NCBI GenBank assembly: GCA_949320185.1
Contig: CASGHK010000013.1
Location: forward strand, 1 to 64,000
Direction: 5' to 3'
From: an uncultured Methanomicrobiales archaeon
GTDB lineage: Archaea; Halobacteriota; Methanomicrobia; Methanomicrobiales; Methanospirillaceae
DNA: 64,000 bases
This document shows, one piece after another, positions 6,012 to 40,623 of the stretch. The notes beneath the pieces were generated by a model, which ran no database searches, was not told where the DNA came from, and worked only from the letters and a program-made list of their open reading frames with translations. Positions within the stretch are counted from its first letter, which is position 1. Each line of letters starts with the position of its first letter. The translations under genes were made by a program, and so were the position numbers.

Positions 6012-6886
6012 AGCGGGTCGAAGTCCTGACAGAGGCCCTGCCGTACATCCAGCAGTTCCACGGCAGGGTGATGGTGATCAAGCTCGGGGGCCATGCCATG
6101 GTCGACCCCGTCATCCTGGAAGCGGCGATCCGCGACGTGGTGCTCCTGCGCTACATCGGAATCCGGGTGGTGCTCGTTCACGGTGGGGGCCCGGAGATCA
6201 CGGCGAAGATGGAGGCGCTCGGCAAGGAGCCGAAGTTCGTCGGCGGCCTCCGGATCACCGACGAGGAGACCCTCGAGGTCGCGCAGATGGTCCTCGTCGG
6301 CAAGATCTCCTCCAACATCGTCTCGCTTCTCGAGAAAGCCGGCGCCCACGGGGTCGGCATCTCGGGCAACGACGGCAACCTCCTGGTCGGCAGACGCCTC
6401 ACACCGCAGACGGTCCGTATAGGCGACCACGACGAGCAGGTCGACCTGGGGCACGTCGGCGAGGTGGAGGTCGTGAACCCCGGCCTCCTCAACACCCTCC
6501 TCGACGACGGGTACATCCCGGTGATCGCGCCGATCGCGATCGGCCGGGACGGCAACTCGCTCAATATCAACGCCGATACCGCCGCTGCGATGATCGCGGT
6601 CGCGGTCGGGGCGTACAAGCTGATCAACATGACCGACGTCGACGGCGTGATGGACGCCGACCGGACCGCGGTCTACCGCCGGCTCTCCGTGAACGACGCC
6701 CGCGGCATGATCGCGTCGGGTGCGGTGGCAGGTGGGATGATCCCCAAGGTCGAGGGGATGTGCCAGGCGATCACGCAGGGCGTCCAGTTCGCCCACATCA
6801 TCAACGGGAACGCCGAGCACAACCTTCTCCTCGAACTCTTCACCCGCGACGGTGTCGGGACGATGATCTACGGCGAGGACCGGTAG
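6008..6886 (+). CDS. argB: Acetylglutamate kinase
   Basis: Phosphorylates N-acetylglutamate with ATP, the second arginine step. The chosen ATG at 6008 overlaps the argJ stop by ATGA and gives a 292-residue protein starting [20 protein letters not shown], which matches the family. The amino-acid-kinase hallmarks are [18 protein letters not shown] and [14 protein letters not shown], and the C-terminus has [10 protein letters not shown] longer reading back to 5960 would run inside argJ and is unlikely. Last gene of the arginine operon. Confidence 0.95.
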
Positions 6887-6918
6887 GCAACCGATCGCCC
6901 CCTCCCCGCTCTTTCCCT

Positions 6919-8208
6919 GTGTATCTCGGGTACGTTCAGGAAACCTTATCCGATCCTGAGGGGATAAACGGGGATTATCATGGGGCAATAAGCGCACCGC
7001 AGGTCATACTGAAATCCCCCGGATGGCTGGGAAGCGGTACTCCTGTTGCCGTATTTTTTCTCACACTTCTCTTGATCGTCATCCCGGTTCTCACGGATCC
7101 CTTCGCTCTCACCCTCGTCGCCGAGCCTGATCGGGGCCCTGCGCCTCTCGTGGTCCAGTTCCACGACACCTCGGTCCATTCGACGAACAGCTCGTGGGAT
7201 TCTGGTGATGGTTCTACGGCCATTGTGAGGGACCCGGTCCACACCTTTCTCCGGCCCGGCACCTTCACCGTGCGTCTTTCCGTGACGGTTCCCGGTGACC
7301 CGATCGAGAGGGTTCCCGACACGGTCGACTCGGAGGAGCGGTCCGTCATGGTCCGTATCCCTCTGAAACCCTCGTTCGTGTACCGGCTCGAACCAGGATA
7401 CCGGGTGCGCTTTACGGACACCTCGTCCGGAGGGCCGACCTGGTGGCACTGGGAGTTCGGCGATGGCGCCACCTCGTTCGAGCAGCACCCGGTCCATGTC
7501 TATCCCGGGCCCGGGACCTACCCCGTCAGCCTCCTGGTCTCGGGCGGTGGACCCGAGCTCCGGGTGGAGCGGACCGTCGTCGTGCCGCCGGCACCAACGT
7601 CGGTCTCTCCTCCTCCCCTTGCCGCCGGGTTCACCGCCGGGCCGACTGCGGGAGTGGCACCGCTTCAGGTCCGGTTCACGGATACCTCGACAGGGGGTGC
7701 GACGGAATGGCACTGGGAGTTCGGCGACGGAGCGAACTCCACCGAGCAGCACCCGGTCCATGTATACCGGGAGGCGGGCACCTACACCATCGATCTCGCG
7801 GTGCAGGATGCTGCCGGATCCCGTGCCCGAACGACGAGGCTCAGCCTCGTCCGCGTCGAACCGCCGCCCGATCCCGGGACAGAGACGCCGTCGACGAATC
7901 CGACCACCCCCGTGCCGGGAACGCCGGACATGGATGGAAATTTTGGATTCTTCTCTCTCCCGGATCTGGCCGGTCCACTCGTCCTCTCCGTTCTTGCCGC
8001 CGCCGTCCTCGCCTTTCTCCTGGTGAAGGGCGGCAGGGGGGATCCCGGTGGGGAGATCCATCTCACCCGCGACCCCTCCTTCCCGCGCCGCCCGCCCGCC
8101 CAGGTGAGCATCGAGACGCGGAGCGGTCTCTCCCGCCCATCGCCGGGGGCGTCCGCTCCGGAGGTCACCATCACGATACGCACGGGGATGATCCATGACA
8201 CCACCTGA
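6919..8208 (+). CDS. Membrane-anchored PKD-repeat surface protein
   Basis: About 429 residues from the best available start, a GTG at 6919. The start is uncertain because no in-frame ATG lies before the first membrane helix. A hydrophobic segment (about 41-59) is followed by three PKD domains (about 62-126, 151-215, 233-297). The last two carry the WEFGDG core and HPVHVY...GTYT strands. A Thr/Pro linker and a second membrane helix (about 351-369) follow, then a basic tail of about 60 residues. PKD domains are common in methanogen cell-envelope proteins. It overlaps the next gene by 14 bp. A role in the cell envelope is inferred. Confidence 0.75.
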   Translation: MYLGYVQETLSDPEGINGDYHGAISAPQVILKSPGWLGSGTPVAVFFLTLLLIVIPVLTDPFALTLVAEPDRGPAPLVVQFHDTSVHSTNSSWDSGDGSTAIVRDPVHTFLRPGTFTVRLSVTVPGDPIERVPDTVDSEERSVMVRIPLKPSFVYRLEPGYRVRFTDTSSGGPTWWHWEFGDGATSFEQHPVHVYPGPGTYPVSLLVSGGGPELRVERTVVVPPAPTSVSPPPLAAGFTAGPTAGVAPLQVRFTDTSTGGATEWHWEFGDGANSTEQHPVHVYREAGTYTIDLAVQDAAGSRARTTRLSLVRVEPPPDPGTETPSTNPTTPVPGTPDMDGNFGFFSLPDLAGPLVLSVLAAAVLAFLLVKGGRGDPGGEIHLTRDPSFPRRPPAQVSIETRSGLSRPSPGASAPEVTITIRTGMIHDTT

Positions 8209-11477: not shown

Positions 11478-12713
11478 TCAGGCACCGTATTTATGGGCCT
11501 TGTCGATCAGGTCGAGCAGGATCGGGAGGATGTCGCACCCGGTGATGCGGCAGAGGCCGCCCTCGGCGCAGGCGAACTCGTCGTACCGGTCCACCCGGTC
11601 CGGGCGGACCCCTTCGCCGTGGACAAGAACCGGAACTGGATCGGCCGAATGGTCCTTGACTGTGCACGGGGTGGAGTGGTCGCCCATGACCGCTATCACC
11701 GTCTCCGTGACGTCCAGGAACGGTGCGAGCGCGGCATCGACACGCACGATGAAGTCCCGCTTCTGTTCCGCCTTCCCGTCGTGGCCCGCCTCGTCGGCCC
11801 CCTTGATGTTTAACAGGACGAAGGAGTGCGTCTCGAGTGCCTCGATTGCGGCCGCGACCTTCCCCTCGATGTTGGAGTCGATCGACCCGGTGGCGCCCTC
11901 GACGTGGATAGGGTCGAGTCCGACGACCTTGCCGATCCCGGTAATCAGGGTCGCGGCCGAGACGACTGCCCCGGCGAGCCCGTACCGCTCCCGGAACGGT
12001 TGGAACTCACCCATTCTACCGGCCCCGCGGATCAGTACCTCGTTTGCCGGCAACAGCCCCTCTCCTGCGCGCCGGCGGTTGACCGGGTGGTCCGCGAGGA
12101 CCTGCCGCGCCTGGTGGACGAACTCGTTCAGCACGGCGGCGGTCTTCGCGTCCGCTTCTGTCCCGGTCAACGGCTCGAACTCGTGCGGGAATGCACCCTC
12201 CTTCTTCGGGTCGTTGGAGCCGACCCCGTCTCCCAGCCCCTCACCCTCGAGGGCGAGCGCTGCCCGGTGCCCGGCACCCGAGACGAACTGGAACCGGACC
12301 CCGAACCGGGAGAGGTCCACCGCCTCCTCGATTGCCTTCGAGAGCGGCTCGGTGCCGTGGATCCTTCCCGCACGCCGGTCGACCACGCGGCCGTCCGCAT
12401 CGAGGGTCGCGTAGTTGGCGCGGAACCCCACCATCCCCGGCCGCATCCGGATCCCGGAGCCCTCCGCCTCGAGCGGTCCACGCCCGGTGTAGCACTCGCG
12501 GGGAGGATACCCGAGCAGGGCCAGGTGCGAGGTGTCCGATCCCGGCCGGATCCCAGGACCGATCGTGTCCATGATCCCGGTGATCCCCTCGCGTGCGAGC
12601 CGGTCGAGGACGGGCGTCCTCGCTGCCGAGAGGGGGGTAGCCCCACGGAGGGCCGGGTGTGGCCGATCACCAATACCATCGAGCACGATGAGCACGATCC
12701 TGCTGGCGGTCAT
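11478..12713 (-). CDS. apgM: 2,3-bisphosphoglycerate-independent phosphoglycerate mutase, archaeal type
   Basis: Interconverts 3- and 2-phosphoglycerate in glycolysis/gluconeogenesis. This is the archaeal aPGAM of the alkaline-phosphatase superfamily, 411 residues. The metal-binding N-terminus reads IVLIVLDGIGDRP. The phosphoserine site is in RPGSDTSHLALLGY, and the second metal set is seen in LLNIKGADEAGHDG and VMGDHSTPC. The ATG at 12713 gives the family N-terminus; the frame stays open upstream but that part is antisense to the phosphoesterase gene. First gene of the operon with the bactofilin-like and methyltransferase genes. Confidence 0.95.
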   Translation of the reverse strand: MTASRIVLIVLDGIGDRPHPALRGATPLSAARTPVLDRLAREGITGIMDTIGPGIRPGSDTSHLALLGYPPRECYTGRGPLEAEGSGIRMRPGMVGFRANYATLDADGRVVDRRAGRIHGTEPLSKAIEEAVDLSRFGVRFQFVSGAGHRAALALEGEGLGDGVGSNDPKKEGAFPHEFEPLTGTEADAKTAAVLNEFVHQARQVLADHPVNRRRAGEGLLPANEVLIRGAGRMGEFQPFRERYGLAGAVVSAATLITGIGKVVGLDPIHVEGATGSIDSNIEGKVAAAIEALETHSFVLLNIKGADEAGHDGKAEQKRDFIVRVDAALAPFLDVTETVIAVMGDHSTPCTVKDHSADPVPVLVHGEGVRPDRVDRYDEFACAEGGLCRITGCDILPILLDLIDKAHKYGA

Positions 12714-32542: not shown

Positions 32543-35223
<2,681 letters not shown>

Positions 35224-35227
<4 letters not shown>

Positions 35228-36657
35228 CCGGAAGAGGCATCGTCCTGATCGTCGATGATGAACGGATCGAGCGCCGGCTCCTGGGCGCGATCGTCGAACG
35301 CCTGGGCTACCAGGTCCGGTTCGCCGAGGACGGCGAGTCCGCACTCGCCACCCTGGACCAGGATCCCGAGGTTGACGTGGTGCTGCTGGACCTGATGCTG
35401 CCGGGAATCGACGGTTTCGAGGTCCTCGAGCGGATCAAAAAGACTCCCGGCCTCGAACTGGTCCCAGTGATCGTTGTCTCCGGGATCGATTCGATGGAGG
35501 GCATCATCCGCTCCATCGAGCAGGGGGCGACCGACTTCCTCGCCAAGCCGGTCAACCCGGTCCTCCTTCGGGCGCGCCTCACCTCCTCGATCGCGATGAA
35601 GAGGTACCACGACCAGCAGCGGCGGCACCTGGCGGAGGTGAGCGCCTTCTCGGGGCGGCTCCAGGCGGTGATCGAGGGCGGCCCCGTCGGCATCGCGCTT
35701 ATCGGACCGGAGGGCCGGCTGATCGAGACGAACTTTGCCTTCAACCGGATGTTCGGTGCCGAGGCGGACGAGATCGTCGGTCTCTCGATTGCAGAGGTAC
35801 TCGACCCGTCGAGCAGGGAGGAGGGGCTCGCCCTTCTCGAGGATGCGTTCCGGACGCACGACCGGCATGTCGGCTGCGAGCTCGCCCTGAGGCGCCGGGA
35901 CGGGTCTCTCCTCTGGGGCTCGGTCTCCGTCGCTGTCGTCCGCGACCCGGGGAAGGGGACGAATTTCGCGGTCGTGATGATCGAGGACGTGACCGAACGC
36001 CGACTCTACGCCGAAGCGCTGCGCCGGGCGAACCAGAAGCTAAACGTGCTGAACACGATCACCCGGCACGACATCTCGAACCAGCTCACCTCCGCGATCG
36101 GCAACCTCTCTCTCGCACAGGATCTCAACACTGATCCTGCGCTCGTTCCGGCGCTCGATCAGTTGGACCGGGCCCTCGCGGTGATCCGTCAGCAGCTCGG
36201 GTTCACCCGGGACTATCAGGAGATCGGTGTGAACTCACCGGTCTGGCAGCCCCTCGCCTGGACTGTGCGTCATGCCATCGAACCGCTCGACCCCCCGGGG
36301 CTCGTCGTCGATGTCGCCGACGTGGAAGTATTCGCGGACCCGATGCTTGAGCGGGTCTTCTACACGCTCGTGGAGAACACCCTCCGGCACGGGGGAGGGG
36401 TGACCGCCTGCCGGTTCTCGACTTATCAGGCGGGCGAAGGTCTCGCGATCGTCTATTCCGACGATGGGGTCGGGATCCCCATCGAAGAGAAAGAGCGTGT
36501 CTTCGAACGGGGCGTCGGAAAGAACACCGGTTTCGGCCTCTTCCTTGCCCGGGAGATCCTGTCGTTCACAGGGCTCGAGATCGTCGAGAACGGGGTGCCC
36601 GGGGAGGGAGTCCGGTTCGAGATCAGGGTGCCGCCGGGTTCGTTCCGCCCCTGCTGA
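35224..36657 (+). CDS. Receiver-PAS-histidine kinase protein
   Basis: 477 residues. A receiver domain comes first (phospho-Asp D56 in [11 protein letters not shown]), then a PAS domain (about 145-255). An archaeal-style kinase core follows, with H282 in [17 protein letters not shown], an N-box VENTLRHG, and G boxes SDDGVGIP and GFGLFLARE. It starts by ATGA overlap with the hybrid kinase gene, so its receiver is a likely target of the Hpt of that kinase. No DNA-binding output domain is present, so the final output is not visible here. Confidence 0.9.
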
Positions 36658-37308: not shown

Positions 37309-37353
37309 GGGCACGTTTGATATGGGGCGGACCACAATGAAAATCTGGTGTCG

Positions 37354-38520
37354 ATGACGGTGGGCACGAACCTCGGTAAGGTGGTAGGAGGCACCCTTCA
37401 CGACCTCGGTTTCGGTATCGTGACGTGGGTGCCCGGCATCGGCGCCACGGCCTGTGCGCAGGCCTACGAGTGTGCCGCGGGCCGGATGGTGCCGCCGTCG
37501 TTTCACGAAGAGGTCGCAGTCGGGTGCGGGCACGGCGCTGCCCTCGCCGGAACCCGGTCAGCGGTCGCGATCAAGACTCACGGACTCCTCAAGGCCGCGA
37601 ACGCGGTCTCGGACGCCCTCTTCTGCGGCACGACAGCCGCCTTCATCCTGGTCATCGTCGACGATCTCTTGGGGATCCAGTCGGACAGTATCCTGGCTGC
37701 TGGACCCCTGCTCGATGCCCTCGAGGTGCCCTGGAGCGCCTCGTCGCCCGCGACAATCGGCAGCGACCTCGCTCTGGCCGCGGCCCGTTCCGAAGCCCTC
37801 GGACTCCCGTTCGCTCTCGTTCTGGACGCCGCCGAGGTCTCCTCGCCGGCCGTCGCCCTCCTCTTTCGCCCGCCGCTACTCCAGACCCCCCCGTTCCGGC
37901 GCGACCCGGTCCGGCACCTCCTCGTCCCACCCCTTATCCGCTACCAGCGCGCGGCTCTCTCGGCCCGCCTTGCCGGCACCGCCCCGCCACCACCTCCGAC
38001 CTTGCCGAGGGTCCCGGAACAGATGCCGACTGTGTGGCGGTCTGCCCTTGAGGGGTACCGACCGGTCTTCGATGCCTTCGTAGAGCGCCGACCCTCGTTC
38101 GTCGCCGGGGACGTGGGGCTCTCGAGCTGCTACGGGTTGCCGCCCTACGACGCGATCGACGCCGTGAGCTACATGGGAGGGGCCGTGCCGATCGCCCTCG
38201 GAGCGGCCCTATCCGGTCGAGACGACGCCTGGGCAGTGACCGGTGACTTCTCGTTCGTTGCGGCTGGTCACCTCGGTCTCATCGAGGCGGTCGCCCGCGA
38301 CGTACCCCTGCGGGTGCTCCTCCTTGCGAACGGAAAGGCCGAGACCACTGGTGGTCAGCCGGTCGCATGGGGGGCACTCGAACGGGTACTCGCCGGCTAC
38401 CCGGAGGCGCTCGTGCCGCTCGAGGAACCGTCCGAGCCCAGGGCCTGCCGCGAGGCACTGGACGAGGCCTGGAACCGCGACGGCCTTTCGATCGTTGTTG
38501 CGCGGTACGCCGCTCCATGA
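37354..38520 (+). CDS. Thiamine diphosphate enzyme resembling the core of indolepyruvate oxidoreductase IorA
   Basis: 388 residues from the ATG at 37354 (a GTG at 37348 is also possible). The N-terminal half looks like a pyrimidine-binding domain (PSFHEEVAVGCGHGAALAG, with the Glu that would activate the cofactor). The C-terminal half is a diphosphate-binding domain with AGDVGLSSCYGLPPYDAIDAVSYMGG and VTGDFSFVAAGHLGLIEA. The later NGKAETTGGQPV resembles the IorA phrase after the GD motif. There is no ferredoxin domain and no IorB nearby. It is probably a 2-oxoacid decarboxylase or synthase of unknown substrate. It overlaps the next gene by 4 bp. Confidence 0.75.
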   Translation: MTVGTNLGKVVGGTLHDLGFGIVTWVPGIGATACAQAYECAAGRMVPPSFHEEVAVGCGHGAALAGTRSAVAIKTHGLLKAANAVSDALFCGTTAAFILVIVDDLLGIQSDSILAAGPLLDALEVPWSASSPATIGSDLALAAARSEALGLPFALVLDAAEVSSPAVALLFRPPLLQTPPFRRDPVRHLLVPPLIRYQRAALSARLAGTAPPPPPTLPRVPEQMPTVWRSALEGYRPVFDAFVERRPSFVAGDVGLSSCYGLPPYDAIDAVSYMGGAVPIALGAALSGRDDAWAVTGDFSFVAAGHLGLIEAVARDVPLRVLLLANGKAETTGGQPVAWGALERVLAGYPEALVPLEEPSEPRACREALDEAWNRDGLSIVVARYAAP

Positions 38521-39755
38521 GCCGGACCCCGCTTCCCCCGGTCACCCTCGTCATCGACCCCGGCCCTGCGTCCTGGTCGATCCGCCAGCGTTCCCGCGAC
38601 CTCGCCGCGAGGTTCGAGCGCCCTCCGATCGATCCCGTCATCCCCCTCTGCGGCCCGTTCCTCCTCGACCCGGGGGCGGGTCTCGTCCAGGTCCGCGCCG
38701 TACTCGACGAGGCGGTGCCTCGGGTGCCCTTCCTCGAGTGCCACCTGGACGGGTACGCGGTGCGTGCGGATGGGAGGGGGGGCTCCATCGGCTTTTCAGT
38801 GCGCCCCTCCCCCGCGCTTCTGGACATCATTGCCTCTATCGACCGGACGATGGACCGGATCGCCTCCCTCAGGGACGCGCCGGCAAAGCATCTCTATGTC
38901 CCGGCGGCCCGGTTCGAAGGCCGGGCCGAACTATCGGGTGCAGCGCGTTCTCTCGGCCTCTCTCTGTCTCCCTGGGACCGATTAGTCCGTCTCTTTCGGA
39001 GGCAGTCGCGGTCTTTACCGGGTGGTGGACGCCCAATAGATGGAACGCGCCTCCTGGTCATGGTGGGGGACCGGCCTGTCACGGGGCTCGACCTGGGACT
39101 GAGGCGGTGGCTCCACGCGGCCGAGCTCCGGGACCGTTCGATACGGGCCGCGTCCCTCGGCGAGTACCGGCTTGCCCGGGGGTACGAACTCGCCTCCCCC
39201 TCACACCGGGCTCCGGGCGAGACCTGGCTCCTTGGAGATCTGCACCTGGGGCACCCGGAGATCTCCCTCTACTGCGCGCGCCCCTTCCTTTCAGGCGATT
39301 CCGGGGAGCACGACCGGGTCCTCGTACAGAACTGGCGGCACACGGTTCAGCCCGATGACCGTGCTGTCCTCCTCGGGGACGTCTGCGCCTACCCGGACCC
39401 CGGTTCCTACCGGGCTGCTGTCGCGGGTCTTCCGGGAAGGCTCGAGCTGGTCCGGGGCAACCATGATCCCGCCCTCCCTGGGCTCGTCTCCCAACTCCTG
39501 ATCGAGTCGGACGGGCTGCGGTTTCTCGCGGTTCACGACCCGGCCGATGCTCCACCCGGTTTCCACGGATGGGTGATTCACGGCCATCACCACGACGCCG
39601 ACCTCGAGCGGTATCCGTTCTTCGACCCCGTCTCCCGCCGGGTCAACGTCTCGGTCGAGACGGCCGGGTACGCTCCGGTCCCCCTCTCCCTCATCTGTCG
39701 CCTGGCGAGGGAACGGTCGGGCAGGCTCACCTTCAGGGAGACCGTACCGGCCTGA
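38517..39755 (+). CDS. Two-domain protein: 2H-phosphoesterase-like plus metallophosphoesterase
   Basis: 412 residues. The first about 230 residues resemble the 2'-5' RNA ligase/2H fold (PPVTLVIDPGPASWSIRQRSRDLAARF ... PVIPLCGPFLL ... HLYVPAARFEG). However, the two expected H-x-T motifs are degenerate (VIPL and HLYV), so that domain may only bind. From about residue 235 a complete calcineurin-like domain follows: LLGDLHLGH, LLGDVC, RGNHDP, HDPAD and HGHHHD. It is coupled by ATGA to the ThDP enzyme gene. Its last 23 bp overlap the convergent M20 remnant. Confidence 0.75.
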   Translation: MSRTPLPPVTLVIDPGPASWSIRQRSRDLAARFERPPIDPVIPLCGPFLLDPGAGLVQVRAVLDEAVPRVPFLECHLDGYAVRADGRGGSIGFSVRPSPALLDIIASIDRTMDRIASLRDAPAKHLYVPAARFEGRAELSGAARSLGLSLSPWDRLVRLFRRQSRSLPGGGRPIDGTRLLVMVGDRPVTGLDLGLRRWLHAAELRDRSIRAASLGEYRLARGYELASPSHRAPGETWLLGDLHLGHPEISLYCARPFLSGDSGEHDRVLVQNWRHTVQPDDRAVLLGDVCAYPDPGSYRAAVAGLPGRLELVRGNHDPALPGLVSQLLIESDGLRFLAVHDPADAPPGFHGWVIHGHHHDADLERYPFFDPVSRRVNVSVETAGYAPVPLSLICRLARERSGRLTFRETVPA

Positions 39756-40623
39756 CCACCCCGCCGGCTCCCTCTCCGGCAAGGGCCTGTATCGCACGGG
39801 CATAGCAACGGGCCTGGAAAGCACGGTCCGCGACCCCGATCGACTCGTCCGGCTCGTGCGAGGTGTCCGGGGGTCCGGGCATGAGTGGCCCGAACGCGAC
39901 CGTGTTCGGGAGGGACTTCGCGTATGTCGTGAACCCGACCGATCGAGGGACCACGTCCTTCATCCCGGACTCGGCCCGGAAGACCTCCAGCAGGGAACGG
40001 ACGAGTGGTCCATCCGGTTCGACCCGGAGCAGGGGCAACCGGTCGATCAGTCTCGCCTCCCATCCCCGGGCGACCGCCGACAGGTTCAGGGCCGACCAGA
40101 CCTCCTCGTCGGTCACCGGGCGCGGGAAGGGGACGTCCGGGACGAGCCTCGCCGTTCCGTTCTCCACCCGGCAGGAGCCGGGGCTCACGCTGACGCCGGG
40201 GGTCGGGAGCCCGACGATCTCCCCGTAGAGGGCCCGGTTGAAGGTCGCGTTGAGAGAGCGGACGACCTCTCCCCCGTCCCCGTCGATCCGGGCTCGGTCG
40301 AGGGCGGCGGCGACCTCTTCCGGCCACTCCGCCTCGAGCATGGCCTCTGCCCTGTCCGGCACCACATTCGGAGCAGATCCGCCCTCGAGAGAGAGGAGGC
40401 GCACCGGGCCCCCGGACGGATGCACGGTCATGGTCCAGTCGGCCCAGAGAAACCCCTTCTCGGCGTAGACGACTGGGAAGTCACCGTCCGGGCATAAACC
40501 GGCGATCTGGTCCTGCTCGCGCTCCGTCCGGATGTGCGTCAGGATGCGGATCGGCCCGGTTTCGTTGGTGACCGCGTGGCGTTCGGCTGCCAGTCGGCCG
40601 GTTCTGGTCCAGGGTGGCAACAA
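39733..40623 (-). pseudogene. N-terminally truncated M20-family (PepV-like) dipeptidase
   Basis: The frame gives 296 residues, but family members have about 460. From about position 40490 down, the sequence fits the dimerisation and C-terminal catalytic parts: PDGDFPVVYAEKG, ARGWEARLIDRLP, and FGPLMPGPPDTSHEPDESIG, whose His is a metal ligand. The N-terminal 130-150 residues with the H-x-D and first metal ligands are missing. The sequence upstream of 40620 belongs to the promoter of the next gene. It is probably an inactive remnant; a domain-only function cannot be excluded. Confidence 0.65.

Follow-up and report, generated by a model that had tools for sequence, protein, structure and literature searches.

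A ferredoxin-less IorA relative in a methanogen genome and the unnamed clade of thiamine enzymes to which it belongs

IorA, the indolepyruvate ferredoxin oxidoreductase alpha subunit (NCBIfam model TIGR03336) and the nearest named family to the enzyme described here, joins the PYR and PP halves of a thiamine diphosphate (ThDP) enzyme to a middle domain and a C-terminal ferredoxin domain (2x[4Fe-4S]); it also has a CxxC...C...C set of cysteines and an adjacent IorB gene. In the pyruvate:ferredoxin oxidoreductase family, cysteines of this kind bind a cluster close to ThDP. ComDE (sulfopyruvate decarboxylase) and the phosphonopyruvate decarboxylases of model TIGR03297 (PPDC) are two-domain PYR-PP enzymes, most of them ~370 to 390 amino acids long, with no Fe-S ligands. 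Another relative is the short IorA-like protein of the Aks (coenzyme B) cluster, for which we use the label KDC here.

P0001 is encoded in a 64,000-nucleotide stretch of DNA (the window; contig CASGHK010000013.1) from an uncultured member of the Methanomicrobiales, the genome of which carries mcrA and is thus that of a methanogen. Among named genomes, its close relatives are metagenome-assembled genomes of the Methanoregulaceae. P0001 resembles IorA in its PYR and PP halves, its catalytic residues, and lysine K74 but lacks the ferredoxin and middle domains, the CxxC...C...C cysteines, and an adjacent IorB. KDC, like P0001, has no ferredoxin domain, is of similar length, and falls on the IorA side of the tree, whereas it keeps four cysteines (16/16 sequences), forms a different clade, is located in the Aks cluster, and is 24% to 25% identical to P0001. 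ComDE and PPDC have a comparable size and layout but form separate clades with long branches and carry Gln in place of K74. P0001 is a member of a clade of IorA-related PYR-PP thiamine enzymes that has no name and a patchy distribution; we designate it clade T here.

Domains and residues of P0001

The P0001 gene (388 amino acids) occupies positions 37354 to 38520 of the forward strand, and its assignment as a clade T ThDP enzyme draws on its open reading frame (ORF), Pfam, NCBIfam, orthologues, and purifying selection. The ATG at 37354 is a possible start; an in-frame GTG at 37348 (MSM...) is an alternative that agrees with the GTG starts of both orthologues (MSMKG.. and MSTTR..). The protein is made up of PYR and PP domains only. 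The PYR domain (approximately residues 1 to 165; 37354 to 37848, forward strand) was delimited with the residue table and an AF2 model and includes E52 of the HEE motif, the codon of which (37507 to 37509, same strand) was located by alignment. The PP domain (approximately residues 226 to 388; 38029 to 38517, forward strand), placed by Pfam, the AF2 model, and alignment, contains the GDF...N Mg-ThDP motif (D298 and N326) and no CxxC...C...C.

Pfam recognized TPP_enzyme_C (E value, 5.2e-9), with TPP_enzyme_N below the cutoff (E value, 0.089), and detected no Fer4 domain. The top NCBIfam model was IOR_alpha (TIGR03336), at 56.4 bits versus a cutoff of 650.9, and it ranked first for all five clade T members scanned. 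Scores with the ComDE models TIGR03846 and TIGR03845 were 16.2 and 16.1 bits (cutoffs, 221.5 and 147.95), and TIGR03297 gave 18.5 bits (cutoff, 312.5). Together with its position on the IorA side of the tree, these results bear out the initial annotation, which had described an IorA-like ThDP enzyme without a ferredoxin domain. A PDB sequence search with P0001 gave no match at an E value of ≤0.1, and a PHROGs search gave none. Values of dN/dS across three genome pairs were 0.23 to 0.29 for P0001 and 0.28 to 0.48 for the downstream gene, P0002, indicating purifying selection, and both genes are therefore maintained.

The AF2 model of P0001, a monomer predicted from five sequences, is of moderate confidence (pLDDT, 74; pTM, 0.73). 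In a fold search, it matched ThDP decarboxylases, synthases, and lyases along the whole chain with tied Z scores of ~22 to 23; one match had a Z score of 23.5 (rmsd, 6.8; 329 aligned residues). Since the whole superfamily was returned, the predicted model confirms the ThDP fold and discriminates no subfamily. Among these matches, decarboxylases scored level with acetolactate synthases, benzaldehyde lyase, and 2-hydroxyacyl-CoA lyases, as would suit carboligases or 2-hydroxyacyl lyases rather than decarboxylases. However, such matches are common to the superfamily, and the nearest sequence relatives of clade T act on 2-oxo acids; we consider a carboligase or lyase function unlikely.

E52, D298, and N326 (P0001 numbering) are invariant in all five groups compared, E52 being present in 26/26 T, 16/16 KDC, 15/15 IorA, 12/12 ComDE, and 5/5 PPDC sequences. 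From what is known of ThDP enzymes, E52 presumably activates ThDP, and D298 and N326 presumably hold the Mg-diphosphate. Four cysteines outside the ferredoxin domain (those of CxxC and DxGC and another toward the end of the PP domain) are found in all 15 IorA and all 16 KDC sequences, and the residue table has none of them in the 26 T, 12 ComDE, or 5 PPDC sequences. Clade T members are 382 to 427 amino acids long (n = 26), with no space for an Fe-S or FAD middle domain. Their hallmarks are EE at the site of EK or ER in IorA and KDC, together with K-[TSA]-[HQ]-G, and P0001 carries the whole motif set of the clade (HEE / K-x-[HQ]-G / GDxxF / NxxAxTGGQ). K74 is common to T, IorA, and KDC.

Phylogeny and distribution of clade T

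In a 73-row tree (24 T, 16 KDC, 15 IorA, 12 ComDE, 5 PPDC, and 1 acetolactate synthase), clade T was recovered as one clade with support of 100/99. The tree separated T, IorA, and KDC from ComDE and PPDC, and the ComDE (99/99), PPDC (99/96), and KDC (100/100) clades contained no T member. Placement within a known sulfopyruvate decarboxylase clade had been named in advance as a check on the initial reading; the tree keeps T separate from both ComDE and PPDC. The IorA and ComDE sets (15 of 24 and 12 of 28 ORFs) had been thinned of near-copies, and the KDC set comprised 16 of 21 ORFs, the other 5 being the same genes again, with proteins of >430 amino acids trimmed to the last 423 residues. The T rows of the tree and residue table numbered 24 and later 26, excluding one split gene (L183 of genome G421). 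In a 36-row tree that included two further archaeal T sequences, support for T was 100/100; the five archaeal members grouped at only 88/86, a value that does not settle the direction of transfer. With rooting on ComDE, PPDC, and acetolactate synthase, T fell outside IorA plus KDC, branching before the IorA-KDC split, although the root position is weak. Describing T as having lost its Fe-S ligands may thus be wrong, and the ligands may never have been present. Both trees are subject to the tool's warnings about long branches and composition.

Orthologues of P0001 were identified in three of the seven genomes of the genus, including that of the window, with 68% to 71% identity over nearly the full length. 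Profile searches detected clade T in 3 of 232 genomes of the order, where the next best match scored 54 bits versus >780, and in 3 of 392 sampled genomes of the Halobacteriota, the phylum of the window, two of these in other families (G688 and G893). The three orthologues were also used for a pattern scan across 84,980 species genomes, which returned two true relatives outside the genus (L116 and L117), both full-length at 35% to 37% identity, and a third match (L118) that is an IorA; the scan requires near-exact peptides, and phyla beyond the two sampled may also hold T. In the phylum of L116, which holds the Ignavibacteria, a profile search found full-length members of at least 320 bits in 21 of 395 genomes, counting G421, where T is split in two frames and scores lower. 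At an E value of ≤1e-12, 102 of the 395 genomes matched, the remainder being IorA-type matches, mostly of 530 to 600 amino acids. A second, overlapping draw from this phylum had T in 16 of 296 genomes. These bacterial members rule out an archaeal-only clade. A scan of viral contigs returned no T, and a plasmid scan gave only partial matches in four records, the one inspected lying inside an IorA-IorB pair. No paper naming the clade was found in the open-licence PMC literature, and we know of no T member with a known activity.

L117 (JAGXRP010000010.1) is labelled as Desulfobulbaceae. It is 87% identical to the Ignavibacteriae contig L116 over 6.5 kb, and the phylum sample for its genome returned the same genomes as that for the Ignavibacteriae genome. 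L117 is probably from a mislabelled metagenome-assembled genome.

Genomic site and the neighboring phosphoesterase

P0001 is flanked upstream by a divergent gene for a LysE-type translocator (PF01810; 36700 to 37308, reverse strand; identified by Pfam and synteny) and downstream by P0002, and no IorB gene lies beside it, in agreement with the initial annotation. Elsewhere, the same genome encodes a true IorA that has Fer4 domains and lies next to an IorB gene (PF01558). The P0001 stop codon (TGA, 38518 to 38520) overlaps the P0002 ATG at 38517, forming ATGA.

P0002 (412 amino acids; 38517 to 39755, forward strand) joins a degenerate 2H domain to a calcineurin-like metallophosphoesterase, as Pfam, PHROG, and alignment indicate; the two-domain description given earlier for the ATGA-linked neighbor therefore stands. 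In the 2H (LigT/2'-5' RNA ligase-like) domain (38517 to 38966, forward strand), alignment with intact homologues shows both HxT motifs to be lost (PVIPLCGP and LYVPAARF). The homologue aligned with this half, L039, matches Pfam 2_5_RNA_ligase2 (E value, 9.7e-8) and keeps both motifs. The metallophosphoesterase domain (39216 to 39719, forward strand) retains all five motifs (GDLH, GD, GNHD, VHD, and GHHH). Pfam Metallophos scored 20.8 bits (cutoff, 21.5), a PHROG phosphoesterase matched at an E value of 3.3e-27, and the PDB sequence search returned 1xm7 at an E value of 0.02.

Homologues of P0002 are present in all seven genomes of the genus and in 36 of 61 genomes of the order, some of them matching the metallophosphoesterase half only. 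Of 20 aligned loci, including that of the window (L031), 13 have lost both HxT/S motifs of the 2H domain (all 7 genus rows and 6 of the 13 others), and the other 7 keep them; several of the rows from outside the genus are more distant and possibly paralogues. The family consists of order-wide 2H (2_5_RNA_ligase2)-metallophosphoesterase fusions, of which P0002 is the genus homologue, differing by its lost 2H histidines.

The site has a common order in the genus: riboflavin genes, LysE, P0001 where present, P0002, and a PEGA protein. In three genomes without P0001 (G001, G002, and G003), LysE adjoins P0002, the matched parts being 28 to 110 bases apart, and the G003 sequence immediately preceding P0002 is similar to the leader of P0001 in the window. 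In G006, both LysE and P0001 are missing at the site. P0001 is therefore an inserted or removable element ahead of the conserved gene P0002. Some of the genus genomes are incomplete (66% to 95%), and the site itself was read in all six relatives.

Two other features of this part of the window were noted. Of the six relatives, only G006 shares with the window, at this site, the region from 32543 to 36657, which encodes a hybrid histidine kinase along with a response-regulator/PAS/HATPase protein. Positions 39733 to 40623 (reverse strand) resemble the remnant of an M20 peptidase (Pfam E value, 0.015, below the cutoff), with the C-terminal part kept and the N-terminal part missing; this remnant was matched only in pieces in G004.

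The initial annotation had suggested that P0001 and P0002 form a functional pair that could process a phosphorylated 2-oxo acid or cofactor precursor. In each of the three genus genomes with P0001, P0002 follows it with an ATGA overlap. However, P0002 occupies the same syntenic site without P0001 in four of the seven genus genomes and is spread through the order. Moreover, no P0002 homologue occurs at any of the 22 bacterial T loci, and none was seen by eye at the two other archaeal T loci. The distribution of both genes largely refutes the partnership; we reject the pairing and regard a two-gene unit as very improbable, and since P0002 is distributed independently of T, the phosphorylated substrate is left unsupported. 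P0002 is a genus-conserved neighbor of P0001, sharing a transcript with it at most.

At the bacterial loci, an MscS-type channel gene lies directly upstream of T, with a divergent EamA gene, in the same 13 of 22 cases, and a cupin gene lies downstream in 9 of 22. These genomes share wider synteny, so the neighbors are not independent evidence, and no pathway is drawn from them. In G688, a periplasmic binding protein is encoded upstream of T. The transport genes near T (LysE, EamA, the MscS-type channel, and the periplasmic binding protein) weakly hint at amino-acid-derived 2-oxo acids, although LysE is not evidence in this genus because it is also found where P0001 is absent. For the P0001 substrate, an amino-acid-derived 2-oxo acid is a tentative guess.

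Proposed chemistry and the coenzyme B cluster gene

Since clade T has neither the ferredoxin domain nor the four further cysteines of IorA, and IorB is missing beside P0001, non-oxidative decarboxylation of a 2-oxo acid, as suggested in the initial annotation, appears to be the likeliest chemistry for P0001, and we favor it with somewhat better than even confidence. The known non-oxidative decarboxylases compared, ComDE and PPDC, likewise lack the four cysteines, which would favor a decarboxylase reading of T on sequence grounds. ThDP would bind at the interface of a putative dimer, with E52 activating it and D298 and N326 holding the Mg-diphosphate. The ylide would attack the 2-oxo acid, with loss of CO2, and protonation of the enamine would yield an aldehyde; alternatively, the enamine would be transferred to an aldehyde or ketone acceptor. 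With all Fe-S ligands and IorB missing, electrons would have no exit in P0001. As K74 is kept in T and is Gln in ComDE and PPDC, T does not copy the active site of those enzymes.

T may use an external acceptor or depend on an Fe-S subunit encoded at another locus, and its kinship with IorA and the K74 shared with IorA and KDC would fit an enzyme that is still an oxidoreductase using an unlinked acceptor subunit. Against this, all Fe-S ligands are missing, and clustering of the neighbors at the 22 bacterial loci revealed no conserved redox subunit next to T, making an oxidoreductase distinctly unlikely.

Like ComDE, P0001 has no Fe-S ligands, and six of the seven genus genomes have no ComDE-level match (G005 has fragments only), so that P0001 might seem to replace ComDE in coenzyme M synthesis. 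However, four of the six ComDE-less genomes also lack P0001, the T-bearing archaea G688 and G893 keep ComE matches of 212 and 232 bits, and T forms a separate clade. Most of the bacteria that carry T would not be expected to require coenzyme M. The genomes lacking both genes, and the co-occurrence of T and ComE in G688 and G893, argue against P0001 as a ComDE substitute, a role that we reject as highly improbable. A ComE match over the curated cutoff was found in only 25 of 61 genomes of the order (28 at ≥219 bits), and many nearly complete genomes are without one.

The short IorA-like makeup of P0001 is common to the Aks-cluster gene, which raised the idea that P0001 decarboxylates 2-oxosuberate in coenzyme B synthesis. 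The same genome, however, has a cluster-borne KDC (L104, 8160 to 9428; G000:C43), from which P0001 differs in clade and, at the low identity given above, in sequence, and T is also found in bacteria. Unless that KDC has another role, its presence rules out P0001 as the coenzyme B enzyme, and we give the idea next to no credence.

KDC itself, a ferredoxin-less IorA relative that keeps the four cysteines, lies directly beside AksA at all 14 loci read (L104 and 13 others, L088 to L091 and L105 to L113). The cluster in the genome of the window encodes AksA, AksD, AksE, and AksF together with an Mmp11-like protein, a radical SAM protein resembling LipS2, and a DUF7714/XcbA-like protein; the Aks and Mmp11 names are partly presumptive. 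A 2011 inventory (PMC3087415) lists the enzyme of 2-oxosuberate decarboxylation among unknown proteins. A search of the open-licence PMC literature, which does not cover subscription journals, found no paper assigning a 2-oxosuberate decarboxylase. From its sequence and position, KDC is a candidate for this step of coenzyme B synthesis; its four cysteines may also allow redox activity.

In the Aks cluster of L088, the DUF7714 protein (11691 to 12482) weakly resembles the XcbA family, which belongs to bacterial coenzyme M synthesis, and the radical SAM protein (6739 to 7734) has LipS2/lipoyl-synthase-like similarity; either could be a candidate for the step that forms the thiol of coenzyme B. 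G006 (C68 and C44) apparently has two coenzyme B clusters (L106 and L107), each with its own KDC, and one of the clusters may be a binning artifact.

The decarboxylase chemistry of P0001 is now plausible and better supported than before. The IorA lineage may thus include two ferredoxin-less clades, T as an Fe-S-free 2-oxoacid decarboxylase and the Aks-cluster KDC acting on 2-oxosuberate, a combined reading to which we give somewhat less than even weight. The unnamed ThDP clade is set apart from IorA, ComDE, and PPDC, and simple residue markers are available against its misannotation as IorA. For the archaeal order, a conserved gene of the coenzyme B cluster becomes a testable candidate for a step that has no enzyme in the 2011 paper. 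If the combined reading is true, T and KDC together would show interconversion between a ferredoxin oxidoreductase scaffold and a plain decarboxylase.
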